Source: Rhizobiaceae bacterium (GTDB lineage Bacteria > Pseudomonadota > Alphaproteobacteria > Rhizobiales > Rhizobiaceae). Taken from it: a stretch of DNA of 64,000 bases. The stretch spans positions 1-64,000 of the forward strand of contig JARGOF010000003.1 of NCBI GenBank assembly GCA_029212415.1. The letters are read 5' to 3'. Below, piece by piece: positions 6,764 through 48,366 of the stretch (the stretch's first letter is position 1; every line of letters begins with the position of its first letter). A program made the translations under genes and the position numbers. A model generated the notes under the pieces. The model was not told the origin of the DNA. It searched no databases and saw only the letters and a program-made list of their open reading frames with translations.

Positions 6764-7024
6764 GGATCTCGGCTTTCGATTGGATGAGATAGTCTTTCAA
6801 ATTTACCCCATCATGTCAAAGAATGAAAAGACCTCTATTTATAAAGCCAGGGAAGGGCAAGCCGATGCCCCAATCAATCGACACCGTTCAAATGCCGAAG
6901 GCCAGCCAGTATCGGCTACAACTCTGCACGCATTTCGGGGATTCCTGCGCGACCTTTGGAAAAATGAAACAGTCATGACGTGTCGCTACAGGTGGGCAAG
7001 GTCAGAATATCCGGAGACACCTTT

Positions 7025-7636
7025 ATGAAAATGCTGAAAACGCTGCTCAATTCACCCTATGTTTTCTGGGCTCTTCTTGCCTTGCCTTCGATCGGCATGA
7101 TCAATAGCGCATTGTCCGGCCAGGATCTGGAGCCGCTGCTTCATCCCAGTGGCGAATTCGCCGCCCGGTTCATGATCCTCGCGATGATGCTGACCCCCTT
7201 GCGCATGCTGTTTCCGAAGTCCGGCCTTGTGTTGTGGTTTTTGCGACGCCGCCGTTTCCTTGGCGTGGCCGCCTTCGGTTATGCCGCACTGCATACGCTC
7301 TACTACGTGATTGACCTGGGGTCCCTGTCGGCCGTCGGTGCGGACCTGACCAAGTTCGGCATCTGGACGGGGTGGGTGGCATTCGTCATTTTCGTGCCGT
7401 TGGCCATGACCTCCAACAATGCTTCGGTCCGCCGCCTTGGCCGCTCCTGGAAGGTGCTGCAGCGATTTGTCTATGCGGCTGCGGTCGCGACCCTGCTGCA
7501 CTGGATTTTTGTCCACTATAATTTCGCTCCGGCGCTTGTGCATTTTGTTCCGCTGGCCGCGCTTGAAACCTACCGCATCTGGAAAACCATGCATTCCGAC
7601 CGTCTGGCGCAGACTGCGCACAACACCGTATCCTGA
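7025..7636 (+). CDS. Ferric-reductase-like transmembrane protein (MsrQ/YedZ-like)
   Basis: A 203-residue membrane protein with about six hydrophobic segments. It resembles the haem-binding ferric reductase-like domain of MsrQ/YedZ: LTPLRMLFP, RRRRFLGVAAFGYAALHTLYYV with a membrane histidine, then KVLQRFVYAAAVATLLHWIFVHYN with further histidines. Such proteins carry b haem and pass electrons across the inner membrane. No MsrP partner is adjacent, so I do not assign msrQ. The ATG at 7025 follows a GGAG; the GTG at 6980 in the same frame is less likely. It is 20 bp from the next gene, so they are probably co-transcribed. Confidence 0.8.
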   Translation: MKMLKTLLNSPYVFWALLALPSIGMINSALSGQDLEPLLHPSGEFAARFMILAMMLTPLRMLFPKSGLVLWFLRRRRFLGVAAFGYAALHTLYYVIDLGSLSAVGADLTKFGIWTGWVAFVIFVPLAMTSNNASVRRLGRSWKVLQRFVYAAAVATLLHWIFVHYNFAPALVHFVPLAALETYRIWKTMHSDRLAQTAHNTVS

Positions 7637-10204: not shown

Positions 10205-11104
10205 ATGCCGAGGTTTTTGTCTGTTACCATCCTGATAGTCGGATTGATGTTGACGCAACAGGCCGCGGCGCAGCCTGCTGATTTGATGATTGCAGCGCGC
10301 GATGGGGATGTCGAAAGCGTTGAGGCCTTGCTGGCATCCGGCGCAGAGCCGGACCCGGAGGGCATTGCAACCCCTCTGTATTTTGCGGCGCAGGGCGGAC
10401 ATCTGGCAATCGTGGAACTGCTGCTTGAGCGTGGTGCGGACCCGAACGCCCGGTCCGATTGGGGCACGCCATTGCACATTGCAGCACGGCGTGGGCACAT
10501 CGGCGTTGCAGAGATCCTTTTGCAGTATGGCGCTGACCCGAATGCGAAGGGCGGTGAACTGGACAATACGCCGTTGCACAACGCCGCCTATGTAGGTGCG
10601 ACACAGATGGGGCGATTGCTGATTGCCCAGGGTGCCGATGTAAATGCCAGAAACAACGAATTCGAGCCGCCGGTTCATCTGGCCATGGAGCGTGGGCGCT
10701 TGCAGATCGCCACACTGTTGCGGGAGGCCGGGGCCCGGCCCATTGCCGTCGAACCGATTTCCGCGCAGCTGGCCGGCGCTGACGTCGAGAAGGGCCGGAT
10801 CAGAGCCCTGGAGTGCAGCGTCTGTCACCAGTTGGCGAAGGATAAAAGGGCCATCGGTTCCGGACCGCGGCTCTGGGGCATTGTCGGACGGCCAATCGCC
10901 AGCGAGGACTTTGGTTATTCCGACGCGCTGCTGGCCGAGATCGGAACCTGGACCTTCGAGCGGCTGAATGCTTTTCTGGCGGATCCGGCGGGCACTGTGC
11001 CTGGCTCGGGAATGTATCGGGGCTATGTCCAGGAGCGGACCGACCGGATCAACATCATCGCCTATCTCAGAACGTTGAGCGAAAGCCCGGTGCCTTTGCC
11101 ATAG
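10205..11104 (+). CDS. Secreted ankyrin-repeat/cytochrome c fusion protein, copy 1
   Basis: A 299-residue protein with a signal peptide (about residues 1-23, ending QQAAAQ). About five ankyrin repeats follow at residues 24-179 (TPLYFAAQGGHLAIVELLLERGADPN, TPLHIAARRGH and similar units). A class I c-type cytochrome domain occupies about 185-299. The haem-binding motif is C204-S-V-C207-H208, and a Met in PGSGMYRGY is the likely sixth ligand. The C-terminal helix is typical of small cytochromes c (RTDRINIIAYLRTLSESP). It is predicted periplasmic. The combination suggests a cytochrome docked to a partner protein by the ankyrin part (inference). A paralogue follows 48 bp downstream. Confidence 0.88.
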   Translation: MPRFLSVTILIVGLMLTQQAAAQPADLMIAARDGDVESVEALLASGAEPDPEGIATPLYFAAQGGHLAIVELLLERGADPNARSDWGTPLHIAARRGHIGVAEILLQYGADPNAKGGELDNTPLHNAAYVGATQMGRLLIAQGADVNARNNEFEPPVHLAMERGRLQIATLLREAGARPIAVEPISAQLAGADVEKGRIRALECSVCHQLAKDKRAIGSGPRLWGIVGRPIASEDFGYSDALLAEIGTWTFERLNAFLADPAGTVPGSGMYRGYVQERTDRINIIAYLRTLSESPVPLP

Positions 11105-11152
11105 CGCGCAATGGGAGACCACGACATTGAATGACTTGTCACAGGAGGCATT

Positions 11153-12073
11153 GTGCGGAAACTGAAAACATTGTCGTGTCTATTGTTGTTCATCCATTGT
11201 CAGGCCGCATGGAGCGCTGAAATTCACGATGCTGCGCGCGCTGGAGATCTGCAATCGCTCGAACTGCTGATCGAGTCTGGTTCTGATGTGAATGCGATTG
11301 ACTATGTGCAAGGGTCCGCACTGCATATCGCCGCCGTCAATGGACATGCTGGTCTTGTGGAATTCCTGTTGCGCAACGATGCGGATCATGGGGCGCAAGA
11401 GTTCGGCAAAGGCGACACGCCGCTTCATTGGGCAGCCCTTGGCGGCAGTCCGGATGTTATCAATCTGCTTTTGGCGGCAGGCGCAGATATCGATGCTGAA
11501 AATGACATTCAAAATATACCGTTGCATATAGCCAGCGAAGCCGGCAACGCAGAAGCTGCATTGCTGCTGATTCAAAATGGCGCTGATGTCCGGGCGGAAA
11601 ATTTGAAAGGCAAGGCGGCGCTGCACCTAGCGGGGCTTGCCGGCAGCAATAATGTCGTCGACGCCCTCATCAACAAGGGCGCCCAATATGCATTGACGGA
11701 ATTTGTCTCACCACTGCTGCAAAACGCGGACATTCAAAATGGTAAGAAATACTGGGAAATGAAATGTCGTGTTTGCCATTCGATAGACCGCGGCATCAAA
11801 CTTGACACTGGACCGCCCCTCCGAGACGTCGTGGGGCGAGCGATGGCCAGTCTGCCCGATTTCGAATATTCCGAAGCACTCAAGCGTGCCGATGATGTCT
11901 GGGATTATGAGAATTTGAATGCATTGCTGCTGGATGGTTGGAATTTCTGGCCCGGAAACAGCATGGGGGGAGGGGAATATGGCAAAATCTCCATTCCTTC
12001 GATCGCAATCAGGGCAGATATTATCGCCTATCTGAGAACCCAAAGCGCCAGCCCTGTGCCTTTGCACGAATAG
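11153..12073 (+). CDS. Secreted ankyrin-repeat/cytochrome c fusion protein, copy 2
   Basis: A 306-residue paralogue of the preceding gene with the same architecture: signal peptide about 1-22 (ending AAWSA), about five ankyrin repeats (ALHIAAVNGHAGLVEFLL, TPLHWAALGGSPDVINLLLAAGADID and others), then a cytochrome c domain with C205-R-V-C208-H209. The likely Met ligand lies in WPGNSMGGG, and the C-terminal helix ADIIAYLRTQSASPVPL is almost identical to copy 1. The start is GTG, chosen because GGAGG lies 4 nt upstream. The ankyrin parts differ far more than the cytochrome ends, so the two copies may have different partners. Confidence 0.88.
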   Translation: MRKLKTLSCLLLFIHCQAAWSAEIHDAARAGDLQSLELLIESGSDVNAIDYVQGSALHIAAVNGHAGLVEFLLRNDADHGAQEFGKGDTPLHWAALGGSPDVINLLLAAGADIDAENDIQNIPLHIASEAGNAEAALLLIQNGADVRAENLKGKAALHLAGLAGSNNVVDALINKGAQYALTEFVSPLLQNADIQNGKKYWEMKCRVCHSIDRGIKLDTGPPLRDVVGRAMASLPDFEYSEALKRADDVWDYENLNALLLDGWNFWPGNSMGGGEYGKISIPSIAIRADIIAYLRTQSASPVPLHE

Positions 12074-39681: not shown

Positions 39682-40230
39682 CTAAGGTTTTTCAGCATTG
39701 CCGGTTGCAAAAAGACCGGTGAGATGTTCGCGTTCAAAAGCGATGTGGCGTCGCATCGCCTCGAAAAAACCGCGCAGCATGTAGCCCAGGGCCTCCGGGT
39801 TGCGGAGCCTTTTGTCTGCACCAAGCTCGCGCAGGGCGTCGGACAGTTCCTCGGCAAAACATTCATCTTCGCAATGCTCATATTTGAGACGCGTGATGGT
39901 GGTGTTGATTTCTGCTGTTGACCCGAATTTCTGAATGGCCAGAGGAAACAGAACGTCTTCCTCGAATTGGTGAATGTTGCGGATGAGCGGTGTCAGATTG
40001 TCGGCCAGATTGCTGCAGGTTTGCGGATCAATCCGGGTGGGAATGGAATCGGCGATCAGTTCCAGCGTATCGCACAAAGTCGATTGCGCCTGATGGGCCC
40101 TTTGCAGGACAGCGGCGGGATCTCCCGCAGGTGAACTGAAAAATCTGGATGAATCAACAATGGTATCCAGAGCTGTCGACAGTTGCATCATACCCTCTTG
40201 CATCGCCCGAATTTTTGACCGATCAGTCAC
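39682..40230 (-). CDS. Hemerythrin HHE-domain protein
   Basis: A 182-residue protein with the metal-binding histidines and acidic residues of hemerythrin-like four-helix bundles: [29 protein letters not shown] and [11 protein letters not shown]. Such proteins bind a di-iron centre and are linked to oxygen or NO sensing, iron-sulfur repair, or storage. I used the GTG at 40230; an ATG at 40203 is an equal alternative and neither has a strong RBS. Divergent from ccoN across a perfect FNR box, so its expression is likely oxygen-controlled. Confidence 0.82.
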
Positions 40231-40271
40231 GGCCAGCGTTCGATCAATAGGCCATTCGACAAAAGCAAATA

Positions 40272-40285
40272 TTGATCAAGATCAA
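40272..40285. promoter_or_regulatory. FNR box upstream of ccoN
   Basis: TTGAT-CAAG-ATCAA matches the FNR consensus exactly, 94 bp before the ccoN start at 40379 and 42 bp before the hemerythrin gene start. It is a likely activator site for micro-oxic induction of both directions by the FnrL protein at 28138. Confidence 0.85.
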
Positions 40286-40378
40286 AGTGTCGGTGCGGGG
40301 AAAATGGCATGGTGCCATCAATCTGCAAGAATCATGTATTCTGCGGATGATTGTTTGCTGCCTGATTGGGGATTACTT

Positions 40379-42001
40379 ATGAAATTTGGTGTCGAAACCA
40401 TGATTGTCGGGATCGGAGCCTTTCTGGCTTTGCTCGCGGTCGCATTTGCACAGGACAAGGCCTTCGAAAGCCATATGTGGGTGCTGTTTTTTGTCTTGCT
40501 TTGTGCGGCCGTTGTGCTGTTGCGCAGATCATCTTTCACGACGGCAGGGGCCGTTTCAGCCGATGCTGATACGTCCGGCTATTTTGATGAGGTGATCAAA
40601 TACGGCGTGGTGGCAACCGTCGCATGGGGCATCGTCGGGTTTCTGGTGGGTGTCATCGTTGCATCGCAGCTGGCTTTTCCGGATCTGAATATTGAGCCCT
40701 GGTTCAATTTCGGTCGGGTTCGTCCCTTGCATACGTCAGCGGTGGTTTTTGCCTTTGGTGGCAATGCGCTCATCGCGACATCGCTCTATGTGGTTCAACG
40801 CACCACACGGGCGCGGTTGTTTGGCGGCAATCTGGCATGGTTCGTCTTCTGGGGTTATCAGCTGTTTATCGTCATGGCCGCGACCGGCTATCTGCTGGGT
40901 ATCACCGAAAGCCGCGAATATGCGGAGCCGGAATGGTATGTCGATATCTGGCTGACGATTGTCTGGGTGGCCTATCTTGTGGTTTTCATGGGCACGCTCA
41001 TCAGGCGCAAGGAGCCGCATATCTATGTGGCGAATTGGTTTTATCTGGCCTTCATCATTACAATTGCAATGCTGCATGTCGTCAACAATCTGTCGATGCC
41101 GGTCTCCTTTCTGGGCGCCAAGAGCTACTCGGCTTTTTCCGGTGTGCAGGACGCCCTGACGCAATGGTGGTACGGCCATAATGCCGTGGGCTTTTTTCTG
41201 ACCGCTGGCTTCCTGGGCATGATGTATTATTTCATTCCAAAGCAGGTCGGTCGGCCGGTCTATTCCTACCGTCTTTCGATCATCCATTTCTGGGCACTGA
41301 TTTTTCTTTATATCTGGGCCGGACCGCACCATTTGCACTACACGGCTTTGCCTGACTGGGCGCAAACGCTCGGCATGGCATTTTCGATCATGCTGTGGAT
41401 GCCAAGCTGGGGCGGCATGATCAACGGTCTGATGACCCTTTCAGGGGCCTGGGACAAGATCCGGACCGATCCCATCGTTAGGATGATGGTTATTTCCGTG
41501 GCGTTCTACGGCATGTCGACATTTGAAGGACCTGTCATGTCCATCAAGGCCGTCAACAGTCTGAGCCATTATACGGACTGGACCATCGGTCATGTGCACT
41601 CCGGTGCATTGGGCTGGGTCGGCATGATCACCTTTGGAGCGGTCTACTTCCTTGTTCCAAAACTGTGGCACCGCGAACGGCTTTATTCGCTGCGGATGAT
41701 CAACTGGCACTTCTGGCTGGCAACATTGGGTATCGTTGTCTATGCGGCGGTCATGTGGGTTGCCGGTATTCAGCAGGGCCTGATGTGGCGCGAATATGAT
41801 GACCAGGGCTTCCTTGTTTATTCCTTCGCCGAGACCGTTGCTGCGATGCGGCCTTATTACATCTTGCGGACCGTCGGTGGTCTTCTGTATCTGGCCGGTG
41901 GCCTCGTTATGGGCTTCAATGTGCTGATGACGATCCTTGGGCATGTGCGGGAAGAAACACCCATTCCCGGCAGTCAACCCGTTATGCAGCCAGCGCAGTA
42001 G
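40379..42001 (+). CDS. ccoN: Cytochrome cbb3 oxidase subunit I
   Basis: A 540-residue 12-helix haem-copper oxidase subunit. The haem and CuB histidines sit in the expected places: [39 protein letters not shown] (CuB His and the family tyrosine region), [13 protein letters not shown] and [12 protein letters not shown]. This is the catalytic subunit that reduces O2 and pumps protons at low oxygen. The ATG at 40379 has GGGGA upstream; the longer frame from 40160 runs through the promoter. Heads the ccoNOQP operon. Confidence 0.97.
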
Positions 42002-42012
42002 GAGAGTGGGCA

Positions 42013-42744
42013 ATGTCAATTCTTGATAAACATCATATCATCGAAAAAAATGCCTCCTATCTTCTGATTGGCTCATTGCTGGTTGTCAGTATTGGCGGAA
42101 TTGTGGAAATAACCCCGCTTTTCTACCTGGAGAATACGATTGAAAAGGTGGAGGGCATGCGGCCCTACACACCGCTTGAGCTGAAAGGGCGTGATATCTA
42201 TGTGCGGGAAGGGTGTTACGCCTGCCACAGTCAGATGATCCGTCCGTTCCGCGATGAAGTGGAACGCTATGGGCCTTATTCTCTGGCTGCGGAATCCATG
42301 TATGACCATCCGTTCCAGTGGGGCTCAAAGCGTACCGGGCCCGATCTGGCTCGCGTTGGTGCGCGCTATTCCAATGAATGGCACGTCCAGCATTTGATCG
42401 AGCCACGGTCCGTGGTGCCGGAATCGGTGATGCCCAGCTACTCCTTCCTGTTGAACGAGGAGCTGACCGGCAATCTGATGGAAGAACATCTGCGCGCCAA
42501 TGTTGCCGTCGGTGTACCCTATGATGAGGCCATGCTGGAAAATGCCAAGGCGGACCTTTTTGCTCAGGCTGACCCGGATGCAGATACGTCCGGTCTCGAA
42601 GAGCGCTATCCAAAGGCTGTGCTGGGAGATTTCGACGGAGATCCAGCCAGGCTGACCGAGATGGACGCGCTGGTGGCCTATCTGCAGATGCTGGGCACGC
42701 TGGTCGATTTCAGCAGCTATGATCCCACATCCGGTTACCGGTAG
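42013..42744 (+). CDS. ccoO: Cytochrome cbb3 oxidase subunit II
   Basis: A 243-residue membrane-anchored mono-haem cytochrome c. One N-terminal transmembrane helix is followed by [29 protein letters not shown], where CYACH binds haem c, and by VMPSYSFLL with the Met ligand. It passes electrons from CcoP to CcoN. GGAGAG precedes the ATG. Confidence 0.97.
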
Positions 42745-42764
42745 AACGCTTTAGGAGGCATGGA

Positions 42765-42935
42765 ATGGACTATCAGACAATGCGGACTTTTGCGGACAGC
42801 TGGGGACTGCTGTTCATGGTGATCGTGTTCGTAGGCGTGATCGCCTACACATTTCGCCCCGGCAGCAAGAAAGAGGCCGACAAGATTTCCCGTATACCAC
42901 TGGGTGATGACGACGCTCTGGATGGTAAGGATTGA
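42765..42935 (+). CDS. ccoQ: Cytochrome cbb3 oxidase small subunit
   Basis: A 56-residue protein (MDYQTMRTFADSWGLLFMVIV, then GVIAYTFRPGSKKEADKISRIP and a short acidic tail). It has one transmembrane helix and the typical FRPGSKK after it. CcoQ stabilises the cbb3 complex. AGGAGG lies 6 nt before the ATG at 42765. Located between ccoO and ccoP as in other operons; it has fewer than 60 residues and is easily missed. Confidence 0.95.
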   Translation: MDYQTMRTFADSWGLLFMVIVFVGVIAYTFRPGSKKEADKISRIPLGDDDALDGKD

Positions 42936-42938
42936 GAC

Positions 42939-43802
42939 ATGACCAAAAAGCACATTGATGAAATCAGCGGCGTTGAGACAACCGGGCATGAGTGGGATGG
43001 CATTCGCGAACTCAACAATCCCATGCCGCGTTGGTGGGTCATCACGTTTTACCTATGTATCATATGGGCCGTTGTCTATATGATCCTCTATCCTGCATGG
43101 CCGTTGATCAATTCGGCAACCAGCGGTGTTCTTGGTTATTCCAGCCGCGCCGAGATAGCCGAAGAAATGGCGATCGCTGCATCGGAAAAATCCGAATATG
43201 TAGACCGTATCGCGCAGATGCCGGTGGAGGAAATCAGCCAGCATCCTGATCTTCTGCAATTTGCCATGGCAGGCGGCAGTGCCGCTTTCAAGGTCAATTG
43301 CGTGCAGTGTCATGGCTCCGGTGCACAGGGCGCACCGGGCTATCCAAACCTCAATGACGATGACTGGCTGTGGGGCGGAGATATCAACGCCATTCATCAG
43401 ACCATCGCGCATGGTGTGCGGTTTGACGGCGACGACGATTCACGCTTTTCGGAAATGCCGGCGTTCAAGGACATGTTGGAACCGGCTGAAATTCGCCAGG
43501 TGGCAGCCTATGTCTACAGTCTGACCGGAGAGCCTTCTGACAGTGCGCTCGTGGCACCCGGCAAACAGGTGTTTGTCGACAATTGTGAAGCCTGTCACGG
43601 CGAAGATGCCAGGGGTGATGTGGACTTTGGTGCACCCAATCTGGCCGATGCGATCTGGTTTTATGGCGATAGCGAGGCCGAAATTGCGGCTCAGATTGCA
43701 AAGCCCAAACATGGCGTGATGCCGGCCTGGGCAGGGCGTTTGGGCGACCCGGTCATCAAGCAGCTTGCCGTGTTCATCCATTCGCTGGGAGGCGGGCAGT
43801 AG
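42939..43802 (+). CDS. ccoP: Cytochrome cbb3 oxidase subunit III (di-haem)
   Basis: A 287-residue protein with an N-terminal transmembrane region (WWVITFYLCIIWAVVYMILYPAWP) and two cytochrome c domains: C121-V-Q-C-H125 and C216-E-A-C-H220, with Met ligands in FSEMPAF and GVMPAWAG. It receives electrons from the periplasmic donor. Starts 3 bp after the ccoQ stop. Confidence 0.97.
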   Translation: MTKKHIDEISGVETTGHEWDGIRELNNPMPRWWVITFYLCIIWAVVYMILYPAWPLINSATSGVLGYSSRAEIAEEMAIAASEKSEYVDRIAQMPVEEISQHPDLLQFAMAGGSAAFKVNCVQCHGSGAQGAPGYPNLNDDDWLWGGDINAIHQTIAHGVRFDGDDDSRFSEMPAFKDMLEPAEIRQVAAYVYSLTGEPSDSALVAPGKQVFVDNCEACHGEDARGDVDFGAPNLADAIWFYGDSEAEIAAQIAKPKHGVMPAWAGRLGDPVIKQLAVFIHSLGGGQ

Positions 43803-43827
43803 TCAGGCACCATGGATAATCACCATG

Positions 43828-43858
43828 CCCGAAGCCGGCTGAGACTGTCGGCTTCGGG
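43828..43858 (+). terminator. Hairpin after ccoP
   Basis: A perfect 10-bp stem (CCCGAAGCCG/CGGCTTCGGG) with an 11-nt loop lies 26 bp after the ccoP stop and 118 bp before ccoG. There is no T run. It likely separates the structural ccoNOQP message from the assembly genes. Confidence 0.6.
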
Positions 43859-43976
43859 GCAAGCGCCCGGCAAGGCCGCACGGACATGAATTGGTGCTGC
43901 GATGGGAGGGGCCGACGTTTCATCCGCTAATTGACCGAGATATGTGCATCCCGGATCTCACACAAAGAAGACAAGC

Positions 43977-45545
43977 ATGACGGATACCAGTTCTGAAGTA
44001 ACGGACGTCGAACGGATTGATGCGGAAGCTGTCAATGCAGCCTGGGCACGCAAGCCGCTCTATGAGGCGCGCAAGAAGATATTTCCCAAGCGGGCGCGCG
44101 GCAAGTACAGGCAATTCAAGTGGCTGGTCATGCTGCTCACTTTGGGAATCTATTATCTGACACCATGGATTCGCTGGGATCGTGGACCCTTTGCGCCTGA
44201 TCAGGCCGTTCTGGTCGATATGGCCAATCGGCGCTTTTACTTCTTCTTTATCGAAATCTGGCCGCAGGAATTCTACTATGTTGCCGGTCTTCTGGTCATG
44301 GCCGGGTTTGGCCTGTTTCTGGTGACCTCGGTGGTTGGACGGGCATGGTGTGGCTATACCTGCCCACAGACCGTCTGGGTGGACCTGTTCCTGGTGGTTG
44401 AACGCGCCATCGAAGGCGAACGAAACCAGAGAATGAAACTGGATGCGGCACCTTGGTCCGCCGGAAAACTGGTCAAACGCGTCACCAAACATGCCATATG
44501 GCTGTTGATCGCGGTTGCAACAGGCGGCGCCTGGATTTTCTATTTTGCCGATGCGCCAACCTTGTTTGTTGATGTATTTACCGGGCAGGCAGCGCCGATT
44601 GCCTATATTACCGTCGCGGTGCTGACAGCCACGACCTATGTTTTCGGCGGGCTGATGCGCGAGCAGGTCTGCACCTATATGTGCCCGTGGCCGCGCATTC
44701 AGGCCGCGATGCTGGACGAGAATTCACTGGCCGTGACCTATAATGACTGGCGCGGCGAGCCCCGTTCGCGCCATACCAAGAAGGCCAAGGCAGAGGGCAA
44801 GATCGTTGGAGACTGCGTTGATTGCAATGCCTGTGTGGCGGTCTGCCCGATGGGCATCGATATCCGCGATGGCCAGCAACTGGAATGTATTACCTGTGCC
44901 CTGTGTATTGACGCCTGTGATGAGGTCATGGACAAGGTCGGCCGGCCGCGTGGTCTGATCTCCTATGCCACACTGGACGAATATGCCGACAATATGGCCC
45001 TGGCGACGGCTGGCGGCACCAGCCCGATCAACCCGGAACTCGTGCGCAAACCGGACGGCTCATTCAGCAACAAGATTCGCCATTTTGACTGGCATATTTT
45101 CATCCGGCCGCGCACACTTCTCTATTTGTCCGTCTGGGCACTGGTGGGCATCGGTCTGCTGGTTGCACTTGGGTCGCGTGACAGGCTCGAGGTTAATGTT
45201 CTGCATGACCGCAACCCGCAGTTCGTGCGTTTGTCGGATGGCTCCATTCGCAACGGCTATACCGTCAAGCTGCTTAACATGATCCCTGAACCAAGAGTGA
45301 TATCGCTGTCGATTGAAGGGTTGCCTGGCGCTACCATGTCGATTGTCGGCATTGATCAGCCCGAGGGCCGCTCATTTGCCATTCCGGTCGAGCCCGACAG
45401 GCTGAGAACCATCAAGGTTCATATCCATCAGCCGATCGAAGAGATCAAACCCGGCAAGACCGTTTTCCAACTGGTTGCGAAAGACAGGGGAAGCGATGAG
45501 TCCGATGTTTACAAGGCGACTTTTGACGCGCCGGAGGTGAAATAA
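43977..45545 (+). CDS. ccoG: Cytochrome cbb3 assembly protein, copper-reducing ferredoxin-like
   Basis: A 522-residue membrane protein with two 4Fe-4S ferredoxin motifs (CVDCNACVAVCPMGID and CITCALCIDACDEVM), upstream membrane cysteines (GRAWCGYTCPQTVW; EQVCTYMCPW) and a C-terminal periplasmic Ig-like domain. CcoG/FixG supports cbb3 maturation by reducing copper. The ATG at 43977 starts a typical N-terminus; an in-frame extension from 43944 is not conserved. Stop and next start overlap (TAATG). Confidence 0.95.
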   Translation: MTDTSSEVTDVERIDAEAVNAAWARKPLYEARKKIFPKRARGKYRQFKWLVMLLTLGIYYLTPWIRWDRGPFAPDQAVLVDMANRRFYFFFIEIWPQEFYYVAGLLVMAGFGLFLVTSVVGRAWCGYTCPQTVWVDLFLVVERAIEGERNQRMKLDAAPWSAGKLVKRVTKHAIWLLIAVATGGAWIFYFADAPTLFVDVFTGQAAPIAYITVAVLTATTYVFGGLMREQVCTYMCPWPRIQAAMLDENSLAVTYNDWRGEPRSRHTKKAKAEGKIVGDCVDCNACVAVCPMGIDIRDGQQLECITCALCIDACDEVMDKVGRPRGLISYATLDEYADNMALATAGGTSPINPELVRKPDGSFSNKIRHFDWHIFIRPRTLLYLSVWALVGIGLLVALGSRDRLEVNVLHDRNPQFVRLSDGSIRNGYTVKLLNMIPEPRVISLSIEGLPGATMSIVGIDQPEGRSFAIPVEPDRLRTIKVHIHQPIEEIKPGKTVFQLVAKDRGSDESDVYKATFDAPEVK

Positions 45546-46051
45546 TGCAGGTTTATCGCCAGATTTTTCAGAGGCAGACATTCACCGGTTGGCACATGCT
45601 GGGTGTGCTTGTCCTGTTTTTCGGCATCATCATCGGTGTCAATGGCACCATGGCCTATTTTGCCACCTCCAGCTGGAGTGGGCTGATTGTCAAGAACACC
45701 TATGTGGCCAGCCAGCAATTTGACGATGACGTTGCCGCGACACGTCAAATGAGAAGTCAGGGCTGGGCATCCAGCCTGCAGGTGGACAGCAAGGCAATCA
45801 CCTATTCACTGACCAATGCCCTTGGGTCACATGTGCCGGTCGATACGGTTGCTGTCAGCTTCACCCGTCCTGTCGGGGAAGAACAGGACCAGATCCTGCC
45901 TCTGGAACGTCAGGAAAGCGGCATTTATGCGACACACCACCGGATGAATCCCGGGCAGTGGGTTGTGCAGGTGGATGCCGAGCGTGATGGCGTTTTGATC
46001 TACAGGGATATTCAGCGGATGGTTATCGATGCGGAGGGGAACAGCCGGTGA
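45545..46051 (+). CDS. ccoH: FixH/CcoH family protein
   Basis: A 168-residue protein with one N-terminal transmembrane helix (GWHMLGVLVLFFGIIIGVNGTMAYFA) and a periplasmic beta domain containing GWASSLQVDS, typical of FixH. It is needed for cbb3 assembly or stability. Start and stop overlap with ccoG and ccoI. Confidence 0.93.
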   Translation: MQVYRQIFQRQTFTGWHMLGVLVLFFGIIIGVNGTMAYFATSSWSGLIVKNTYVASQQFDDDVAATRQMRSQGWASSLQVDSKAITYSLTNALGSHVPVDTVAVSFTRPVGEEQDQILPLERQESGIYATHHRMNPGQWVVQVDAERDGVLIYRDIQRMVIDAEGNSR

Positions 46052-48366
46052 GTTGCTGCGCTCCTGGAACCGAGGCCGCCCTTGAACTGGAAAGGACGCG
46101 CCAATCGGGCCCTTCCAATGAGGAATTGCTGCTGGCCAGCAGGGCGCTTGATGCAAACTTGCGCCAATCTGATTTCAGCGTTCCGGGCATCCATTGTGGC
46201 GTGTGCATCAGGACCATTGAAAATGGCCTGAATGCACTGCCCATGGTCGACCACGCCCGCGTCAATCTTTCAACGCGGCGGGTCAGCGTGATCTGGTCGC
46301 CGGCCTTGGGGCAGCCCTCGACGATTGTCGACACATTGCAGGCTCTTGGATACGCGGCCCATCTCTTCGATTTCGGCGAGACGGGTGAAGACAAGACATT
46401 ATCGGTGCTTTTGCGTTCCGTCGCCGTCGCTGGTTTTGCCTCCGCCAATATCATGTTGCTCTCCGTCTCTGTCTGGTCCGGCGCCGAAGCGGCAACGCGC
46501 GATCTGTTCCACTGGATCTCCGCGCTGATTGCCGTGCCGACACTGGCCTATAGTGGGCGGATCTTTTTCCGCTCGGCATTGTCGGCGCTTCGTCATGGCC
46601 GGCTCAATATGGATGTGCCGATCTCGCTGGCCGTTGTTCTGGCGTTTGCCATGAGCCTTTATGAGACAGCCAATTCAGGCGAACATGCCTATTTTGATGC
46701 ATCCGTTACCCTGTTGTTCTTTCTGCTGATCGGCAGAACGCTGGATCATGTCATGCGTGAGAAGGCGCGCTCGGCAGTCAAAGGCCTGGCGCGGCTGTCA
46801 CCGCGTGGCGCAATAGTCCTGCAGGCGGATGGATCTCGTGAATTTCTGCCTGTCGATGATATTGCTGCCGGCATGAACATTCTTCTGGCAGCCGGCGACC
46901 GCATTCCTGTCGATGCCCGTGTGCTGAAGGGTACCAGTGATCTGGATTGCTCTCTGGTCAATGGAGAAAACCTGCCGCAAACCGTGTCCAAAGGTTCTGT
47001 CATCCGAGCCGGTACGCTCAATCTGACCGGCCCGCTGACCATTGAAGCGCTTGCACCGGCCAGCCAGTCGTTTCTGGCCGAGATGATGCACCTCATGGAA
47101 AGCGCAGAAAACGGCAAGGCAGGCTACCGCCGCATTGCCGATCGCGCCGCCGATCTCTACGCGCCTGTCGTTCACATCATCGCTTTGCTGTCTTTTGTCG
47201 GCTGGCTCATCGTGTCGGGTGATTGGCACTATTCGCTCTATATCGCCATAGCCGTGCTGATCATCACCTGTCCCTGTGCCCTCGGTCTTGCTGTTCCTGT
47301 CGTTCAGGTGGTTGCTGCCGGGCGTCTCTTTGAAAACGGCATCATGGTCAAAGACGGCGCGGCCATGGAACGATTGGCAGAGGCCGACGCAGTGGTCTTT
47401 GACAAGACCGGCACCCTGACACTGGGTCGCCCGCGGCTGGTCAATGGTGATGGCATATCGCCGCAACACCTGCGCATTGCTGCGATTTTGGGGAAACATT
47501 CACGCCATCCCTATTCACAGGCTCTTGCCGGTTTGAAACCGGAGGAGGGCGAGGCTGGCTTTGGTTCGTTTCGGGAAATTCCCGGTGCGGGAATCGAGGC
47601 CGAAAACAATGGCGTTCTCTACAGGCTGGGGCGGGCCGATTGGGCGATCGGCAACAAAGACGAACAGAACGATCAGGATCTGAATCTGGAAGGTGGGCAG
47701 GCAATCCTGAGCGCTGATGGTGCGTTTCTGGCCGCTTTCCTGTTCGAAGACCGGCTTCGCAGCGATGCTGCCTCGACCATTGCAATGCTCAAAACCATGG
47801 AGCTGCCGGTGGAAATCATCTCGGGTGATCGGGCAGGGGCCGTTGCACGACTGGCCGGGATACTCGGCATTGCCGATTTCAAGAGCGGCGTATTGCCGGA
47901 ACAGAAGGCCGCGCATATTGCGCAATTGAGCGCCCAGGGCCGGAAGGTTCTGATGGTGGGTGACGGGCTGAATGATGCACCCGCACTGGTCAGCGCCCAT
48001 GTTTCGATGGCACCGGCCAGTGCAGCCGATGTGGGGCGCAATGCGGCGGATTTTGTCTTTCTGCACGAGAGCCTGTCGGCGGTCACCATCGCGCGGTCGA
48101 TTTCCCTCAAGGCGGGGCGACTGATAAGACAGAATTTTGCCCTGGCGATTGCCTATAATCTGGTCGCTGTTCCCGCTGCTATCTTGGGATATGCAACGCC
48201 GCTGGTCGCCGCCCTTGCCATGTCATCCTCTTCCATTATTGTGGTTCTGAATGCGCTGCGATTGCGGCTGGCAGGTCGCCCTATCGCAGGTACTGCAAAA
48301 GATTCATCTGGCAGTCCGGTTGATACAGAACAGGCGAAGGCCGCCATGATGGAGGCCGGCTTTTGA
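46048..48366 (+). CDS. ccoI: Copper-translocating P1B-type ATPase for cbb3 assembly
   Basis: A 772-residue P-type ATPase. The N-terminal metal-binding domain has GIHC50GVC53, eight membrane segments include the transport motif C408-P-C410, the phosphorylation site is D452KTGT, and GDGLNDAPALVSA is the hinge. FixI/CcoI exports copper for insertion into cbb3. The GTG start overlaps the ccoH stop. An unusual Cys pair (MSCCAPG) at the extreme N-terminus is common in this subgroup. Confidence 0.96.
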   Translation: MSCCAPGTEAALELERTRQSGPSNEELLLASRALDANLRQSDFSVPGIHCGVCIRTIENGLNALPMVDHARVNLSTRRVSVIWSPALGQPSTIVDTLQALGYAAHLFDFGETGEDKTLSVLLRSVAVAGFASANIMLLSVSVWSGAEAATRDLFHWISALIAVPTLAYSGRIFFRSALSALRHGRLNMDVPISLAVVLAFAMSLYETANSGEHAYFDASVTLLFFLLIGRTLDHVMREKARSAVKGLARLSPRGAIVLQADGSREFLPVDDIAAGMNILLAAGDRIPVDARVLKGTSDLDCSLVNGENLPQTVSKGSVIRAGTLNLTGPLTIEALAPASQSFLAEMMHLMESAENGKAGYRRIADRAADLYAPVVHIIALLSFVGWLIVSGDWHYSLYIAIAVLIITCPCALGLAVPVVQVVAAGRLFENGIMVKDGAAMERLAEADAVVFDKTGTLTLGRPRLVNGDGISPQHLRIAAILGKHSRHPYSQALAGLKPEEGEAGFGSFREIPGAGIEAENNGVLYRLGRADWAIGNKDEQNDQDLNLEGGQAILSADGAFLAAFLFEDRLRSDAASTIAMLKTMELPVEIISGDRAGAVARLAGILGIADFKSGVLPEQKAAHIAQLSAQGRKVLMVGDGLNDAPALVSAHVSMAPASAADVGRNAADFVFLHESLSAVTIARSISLKAGRLIRQNFALAIAYNLVAVPAAILGYATPLVAALAMSSSSIIVVLNALRLRLAGRPIAGTAKDSSGSPVDTEQAKAAMMEAGF

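Follow-up and report, generated by a model that had tools for sequence, protein, structure and literature searches.

Electron carriers usually choose their partners through a weak charged patch that is common to many of them. In the portion of PMC9777161 that concerns docking, lysines 8, 13, 27, 72, 79, 86, and 87 of cytochrome c are described as binding acidic patches of the bc1 complex and of oxidase. An excerpt of PMC7876108 reports that Rhodobacter cytochrome cy needs its membrane helix to remain on the supercomplex and that a soluble form is not retained. Ankyrin proteins required for catalase activity are also on record (excerpt of PMC7567364). The parts of the proteins described below are known; their combination as a family appears to be new, with no paper on the fusions found among the matches listed for open-licence PMC articles.

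Two ankyrin-cytochrome c fusion genes side by side

The window, a stretch of 64,000 nucleotides at the start of a contig from a Rhizobiaceae bacterium (JARGOF010000003.1), carries two plus-strand genes, A and B (Table 1), separated by 48 bases, a spacing that suggests co-transcription. A first, sequence-only reading had described each product as a signal peptide and about five ankyrin repeats, ending in a class I cytochrome c domain that has CxxCH and a likely Met ligand, and this architecture is borne out by the open reading frames, the Pfam ankyrin families, and matches to solved cytochromes. The ankyrin family PF00023 scores 124.6 bits in A and 94.4 bits in B against a cut-off of 21.1. The Pfam cytochrome c family reaches 20.9 bits in A, below its cut-off of 21.3, and gives no match in B, and the NCBIfam cytochrome c-550 model gives 33.4 (A) and 36.1 (B) bits, far under its cut-off of 240. 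Compared with solved cytochromes, the haem domain of A has its best match in cytochrome cy (6xkw, 1.8e-15), that of B in mitochondrial cytochrome c (3zoo, 2.2e-13), with cytochrome cy (6xkw) at 1.1e-11.

Table 1. Positions of the two fusion genes, their parts, and redox genes elsewhere in the window
Feature	Position	Strand	Remarks and basis
MsrQ/YedZ-like haem b membrane protein	6980-7633		About 2.6 kb upstream of A; 71.8 bits against a cut-off of 130
Gene A	10205..11104	+	299 aa; predicted secreted ankyrin-cytochrome c fusion (export judged from the N-terminus)
A signal peptide	10205..10270	+	Probable cleavage after ...QQAAA; sequence and hydrophobic 15-mer score
A ankyrin repeats, five	10274..10735	+	Residues 24-177; Pfam Ank families, model helix pairs, Foldseek
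A class I cytochrome c domain, cytochrome cy type	10754..11101	+	Residues 184-299
A CSVCH haem-binding motif	10814..10828	+	Residues 204-208; sequence
A Met270, predicted axial ligand	11012..11014	+	Met at this position in 48/49 fused domains
AGGAGG ribosome-binding site of gene B	11143..11148	+	4 bases 5' of the GTG start; sequence
Gene B	11153..12073	+	306 aa, GTG start; predicted secreted ankyrin-cytochrome c fusion (export judged from the N-terminus)
B signal peptide	11153..11218	+	Probable cleavage after ...AAWSA; sequence
B ankyrin repeats, five	11219..11695	+	Pfam, model, Foldseek
B class I cytochrome c domain	11702..12070	+	Short insertion 3' of the Met ligand
B CRVCH haem-binding motif	11765..11779	+	Sequence
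B Met271, predicted axial ligand	11963..11965	+	Alignment of fused domains
cbb3-type oxidase operon (COX1, FixO, FixP), fixG, fixI-like P-type ATPase	40160-48366		About 28 kb downstream

AlphaFold2 models built on family alignments are confident for both A (pLDDT 92.7, pTM 0.86) and B (pLDDT 90.6, pTM 0.85), and each predicts five pairs of ankyrin helices, followed at the C-terminus by helices whose pattern is compatible with a class I cytochrome c. The best 50 Foldseek matches of each model all fall on the ankyrin part, mostly to designed ankyrin proteins over about 155 residues, and none of these best 50 matches the cytochrome fold. We assign A and B to the class I cytochromes c from CxxCH, the distal Met ligand, and sequence homology; covalent haem attachment is predicted, and the haem-attachment gene ccmE is present in the genome. 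At the N-terminus, the hydrophobic 15-mer score of A reaches 2.08 from residue 4, above the threshold of 1.6, and the core of B is weaker, at 1.47, below that threshold.

Near-identical cytochrome ends and diverged ankyrin parts had at first been taken as the mark of paralogues that dock to different partners. The identities speak otherwise: A and B agree at 59/156 ankyrin positions (38%), at 33/96 positions of the cytochrome without its tail (34%), and at 13 of the last 16 residues, and the mean pair identities of 39 family members are 0.51, 0.50, and 0.84 over the same three parts. The tail of the genome's own unfused cytochrome (L003) is identical to that of A at 14/16 positions and to that of B at 13/16; since this unfused protein has the same tail, the tail is a motif of the cytochrome lineage and is silent on ankyrin divergence. 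A groups with L037 and L046 in the full-length tree (97/84) and in a five-row group without B in the haem-domain tree (99/96), where A and B share a larger but weak group of nine rows (80/89). The ankyrin tree pairs B with L044 (99/95), and these two sit inside a five-row group with A (92/81). The three trees, the A-B identities, and the tail of the unfused cytochrome rule out a recent tandem duplication with divergence confined to the ankyrin part. A and B are distant family members that stand next to each other and may come from one broad branch; paralogues they are in this sense, and not as a close pair, A being nearer to others than to B in all three trees.

A sparse family of fusions

Ankyrin-cytochrome c fusions are not a one-off but a sparse family, mostly of Mesorhizobium and Rhizobium, and A and B share its pattern: a signal-peptide-like start, ankyrin repeats, and a cytochrome cy-type domain in one conserved alignment. 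Counted as lower bounds (the best five to seven first-look candidates were scored per genome), 86 of 297 genomes sampled from the window's family match at an E value of at most 1e-20. The fusion is matched over its full length in the window's genome and in 8/296 others, at nine loci, and the remaining 77 genomes match over the haem part, except G062, which matches over the ankyrin part. At the level of the order (query B, 297 genomes, 1e-25), at least seven genomes match: the window's own, three more from its family, and three from outside that family, among them a partial candidate (in G407) unconfirmed as a fusion. The class sample (385 genomes, 1e-29) gave a fusion in the window's genome only, its one other match (in G814) being unfused, and the phylum sample, searched with a profile (398 genomes, 1e-35), gave 52 matching genomes, with full-length matches in the window's genome and three of its family; these counts are lower bounds too.

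A scan of named genomes yielded at least 80 loci, among which L046-L085 are ankyrin-cytochrome relatives (L081 and L084 only as short ORFs, which the fusion sets omit). Most of them come from Mesorhizobium; Rhizobium, Aminobacter, and Phyllobacterium also occur, as do three Ruegeria and some records that are unclassified or metagenomic. The scan pattern was the C-terminal IAYL(R/K) motif only, and tail conservation among L046-L125 is therefore partly built in; the tail is also conserved in L003, L037, L040, L042, L043, and L045, which were found without that motif. CxxCH is present by construction in the haem-domain rows, which were cut out by CxxCH and the tail motif, but not in the fusion ORFs picked by BLAST, where it occurs in 51/51 (three of them copies). 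Met occupies the ligand position in 48/49 fused domains; the fusion of Ruegeria sp. XHP0148 (L085) has Lys at the aligned position and Met two residues on. Two fusion ORFs at one locus were seen in the window only, with none among loci L037-L085.

A CxxC pair, typically CLDCV, stands in the fourth ankyrin repeat of 36/46 fusions, where the second helix should start. It is found in L040, L048, L062, and most other Mesorhizobium and Rhizobium members, is absent from A, B, the Ruegeria members, L037, L044, L046, L047, and L079, and, lying beside a haem domain, may form a disulfide or a pair of redox-active thiols.

The trees and the neighbour clustering omit L038, L039, and L041 (copies of L046, L047, and L065), and the cytochrome tree also omits L092 (a fusion relative with a broken frame) and the copies L103 and L107. 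L019, L026, L030, and L094 gave no haem-domain row; L079 is left out of the family alignments, one of which also lacks L054, L073, and L075; the charge and ring counts exclude the third domain of L102, and the neighbour Pfam work excludes L053.

Fusion genes of the Mesorhizobium/Rhizobium branch are under purifying selection: dN/dS lies between 0.09 and 0.41 in both domains of 7/7 pairs, all from that branch and not A or B. Among matches to plasmid records, 16/18 span 80% or more of the query, each of the 16 bearing the name 'ankyrin repeat domain-containing protein'. Such a sparse and often plasmid-borne distribution, with full-length matches in so few sampled genomes of the window's family and no fixed neighbourhood, could mean that the fusions are accessory-genome cargo, each serving as periplasmic donor or acceptor for an enzyme of its particular host, with no family-wide partner type. 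Constraint on both domains and one conserved architecture instead favour a common partner type, and we consider the cargo reading improbable.

The anchor of cytochrome cy exchanged

Matches to solved structures and the haem-domain tree both make the haem domains of A and B homologous to cytochrome cy. Among the unfused relatives, 54/55 N-termini read as membrane-anchored, with a membrane helix, a linker, and then the haem domain; L143, read separately, is anchored too. The single exception, L018, has a signal peptide instead of the anchor, as well as a second CxxCH domain, so that the comparison set called anchored is the unfused set with one unanchored member. Fusions and unfused relatives have in common an entry motif before CxxCH and the C-terminal tail. 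A and B do not show the cytochrome cy arrangement of an N-terminal anchor followed by a linker: the N-terminal segment is separated from the haem domain by the ankyrin repeats. From the start of the hydrophobic segment to CxxCH, the median distance is 198 residues in 46 fusions versus 73 in 57 unfused proteins, and the segment exceeds the threshold of 1.6 in 40/46 and 57/57, respectively. These distances, taken with the anchored relatives, put the signal peptide and ankyrin repeats where the anchor and linker sit in the relatives. As judged from sequences and models, the haem domain belongs to the type of membrane-anchored cytochrome cy, with a signal peptide and ankyrin repeats in place of anchor and linker, an exchange that is new here.

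The free cytochrome tree implies four changes between the fused and unfused states. Constraining all fusions to one group improves the likelihood by 5.97 (p-AU 0.598); a single fusion origin is thus not rejected, and the fused set may descend from one.

Loss of the lysine docking ring

We mapped the ring as K13, K27, K72, K79, K86, and K87 of horse cytochrome c on the alignment, leaving out K8; the horse numbering was checked against the cytochrome c alignment of B. Lys or Arg occupies a mean of 0.90 of the six positions in fused domains versus 4.29 in unfused ones. Among 49 fused domains, 19 have none, 17 have one, 12 have two, and one has three, whereas 58 of 62 unfused domains have 3-6 and four have 0-2 (three of these from one Bauldia protein). 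A has none and B one; the genome's own anchored, unfused cytochrome (L003) has five. Position by position, basic residues are found in 2/49 fused versus 42/62 unfused domains at K13, 20/49 versus 56/62 at K27, 1/49 versus 56/62 at K72, 12/49 versus 29/62 at K79, 8/49 versus 43/62 at K86, and 1/49 versus 40/62 at K87, which is acidic in 44/49 fused domains. Within the window's family, the 19 unfused rows (from 22 loci, three of which gave no row) have 4-6, and 16 hand-chosen deep fused lineages have 0-2.

Basic residues outside the ring are not reduced (mean 9.94 fused versus 8.71 unfused). The mean net charge of the domain moves from +1.7 in unfused to -2.5 in fused proteins, and mean total lysine from 8.95 to 4.55; with lysine halved and the outside basic residues kept, arginine supplies much of the basic complement elsewhere. 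Fused domains also have fewer basic residues at positions 202, 212, and 243 and more of them at 188, 196, 198, 229, and 231. On the alignment, then, the docking ring is largely lost in the fusions, a feature that is new here, and the change is a wider remodelling of the surface, not a pure ring effect. As the fusions may share one origin, ring loss may have been one or a few events, kept afterwards. Among the unfused proteins, L096, L102, L105, and L123 have two or more tandem cytochrome domains each (four were cut from L102), and three L102 domains are also without most of the ring.

These changes bear on the most conventional role for A and B, that of auxiliary respiratory cytochromes shuttling between bc1 and an oxidase, for example the cbb3 enzyme of the window, with the ankyrin part only stabilising or localising them. 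Among solved proteins, cytochrome cy comes closest to the haem domain of A, the cbb3 oxidase and fixG genes alone lie at 40160-45545, and one of 106 neighbour proteins at other fusion loci is a cytochrome b. Set against this are the loss of most docking lysines, the lack of the membrane helix by which cytochrome cy is retained on the supercomplex (excerpt of PMC7876108), and the anchored copy that the genome retains, and no oxidase family is represented by more than one of those 106 proteins. Without a membrane helix, with little of the ring, and in a genome that has its own anchored cytochrome, a fusion makes an unpromising shuttle between bc1 and oxidase, and we hold this role to be unlikely.

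Genomic neighbourhoods

The observation that no oxidase stands beside A and B is correct for the nearest genes but fails more widely, since the cbb3 operon lies in the same window (Table 1). The MsrQ-like gene upstream adjoins a divergent LysR gene and an NmrA-like gene, and the ORFs scanned beside it included no gene for the partner MsrP. An operon of A with the upstream GBBH-like oxygenase gene was considered and set aside: the gap is 276 bases, and a promoter/terminator scan was uninformative.

Mapping of the neighbours at other loci revealed no recurring partner gene, and no recurring redox enzyme, by neighbour clustering, a Pfam scan, or eight annotated plasmid neighbourhoods. The large shared clusters are the fusion itself, apparent antisense ORFs, and apparently common ABC, SDR, LysR, GntR, and cyclase-type families, with a small group of syntenic Mesorhizobium loci besides. 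The Pfam scan covered 106 of the 114 neighbour proteins of at least 150 aa, out of 169 called by a codon-score script, and found 125 families, 14 of them in at least two proteins, with MFS the commonest (4). No redox family occurs in more than two of the 106 proteins, and oxidase and MsrQ-like families each occur no more than once (flanks up to 10 kb). Genes of the GFA family lie within 12 kb of the fusion in 3/8 plasmid neighbourhoods (L145, L146, and L148), in varying places, as do cyclase-domain genes in more than one neighbourhood. At 10734-11006 of L144, about 1 kb from the fusion of pMESCI01 and on the opposite strand, a short annotated ankyrin fragment is perhaps a decayed copy.

Two further roles turn on these neighbourhoods. 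The fusions could be redox or haem-ligand sensors, the state of the haem altering the ankyrin surface and thus the binding of a signalling partner. The genes are mostly solitary, the ankyrin domain is a plausible output module, the CxxC pair of 36/46 fusions (not A or B) could be redox-active, and cyclase-domain proteins lie near some fusions (Guanylate_cyc in 2 and GGDEF in 3 of the 106). These signalling families are, however, common and vary in place, and Met at the ligand position in 48/49 domains favours a closed, six-coordinate electron carrier. Evidence for or against a sensor is scant, and we rate it as quite improbable. A helper in haem handling or peroxide defence that supports catalase, in the manner of AnkB of Pseudomonas or Cj1386 of Campylobacter, would have a precedent in ankyrin proteins, and two of the 106 neighbours are peptide methionine sulfoxide reductases. 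Yet no catalase family is found in more than one of the 106, no catalase gene was found among the window genes scanned around A and B or in the eight plasmid neighbourhoods (from an incomplete gene table), and we know of no cytochrome domain in AnkB or Cj1386. Such a helper would be a long shot.

A proposed ankyrin-addressed electron carrier

The reading that we tentatively prefer, while giving it somewhat less than an even chance, is that A and B are soluble periplasmic electron carriers, with one haem each, that the ankyrin domain addresses to a non-standard, specific partner. In the unfused relatives, the haem domain hangs on an N-terminal membrane helix and linker and docks to bc1 and oxidase through the lysine ring. 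In the fusions, a signal peptide that is cleaved off and a solenoid of five ankyrin repeats would have taken the place of anchor and linker, with most of the ring lost. The ankyrin surface would then bind a specific partner in the periplasm or at the membrane surface and keep the haem beside it, so that partner choice would be set by the ankyrin domain and not by a general lysine ring. The carrier could pass electrons to or from this partner without competing in the main respiratory shuttle, which would be left to the separate anchored cytochrome of the genome. The sequence-only reading had already proposed a partner-selected electron shuttle; its conclusion survives as the best reading, its argument from cytochrome ends does not, and ring loss together with anchor exchange now favours the addressed carrier.

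Several observations weigh against this carrier. No redox family recurs beside the fusions. Some cytochromes c dock by hydrophobic faces without a lysine ring, so ring loss alone is no proof of a new partner. The origin of the fusions is possibly single, ring loss perhaps one ancestral event, and the remodelling extends beyond the ring, with total lysine halved; K27 and K79 are still basic in 20/49 and 12/49 fused domains. B, which is strongly diverged, keeps one ring lysine and may differ in function, and selection was measured in relatives, not in A or B. A narrower version, in which electrostatic docking has been erased in favour of an ankyrin module for one chosen periplasmic partner and A and B are two addresses side by side, strikes us as rather doubtful.

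If the ankyrin domain does set the address, the fusions would be a precedent, found in nature, for redox proteins with plug-in wiring, and swapping ankyrin domains would become a test of how the destination of a cytochrome's electron is decided. That reading would also give a function to seek in proteins labelled only as containing ankyrin repeats.

Comparison with known systems

Cytochrome cy of Rhodobacter, membrane-anchored cytochrome c552 of Paracoccus, and CycM of Bradyrhizobium, the name that this lineage has in rhizobia, share with the fusions the haem domain sequence, CxxCH, the Met ligand, the entry motif before CxxCH, and an IAYLRT-type tail. Unlike these proteins, the fusions have no anchor and long linker but a signal peptide and five ankyrin repeats, and they have largely lost the docking lysine ring. 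The stand-alone secreted ankyrin proteins of Proteobacteria (e.g., L160 and L155) resemble the fusions in a signal-peptide-like start and related ankyrin repeats and differ from them in having no CxxCH (0/11 examined among the ankyrin-only phylum matches). Periplasmic AnkB of P. aeruginosa and haemin-binding Cj1386 of C. jejuni are, in an excerpt of PMC7567364, ankyrin proteins with a haem connection. A and B, by their N-termini, would likewise be exported ankyrin proteins, but no catalase gene recurs beside the fusions, and, unlike AnkB and Cj1386, each fusion bears a c-type haem domain of its own.
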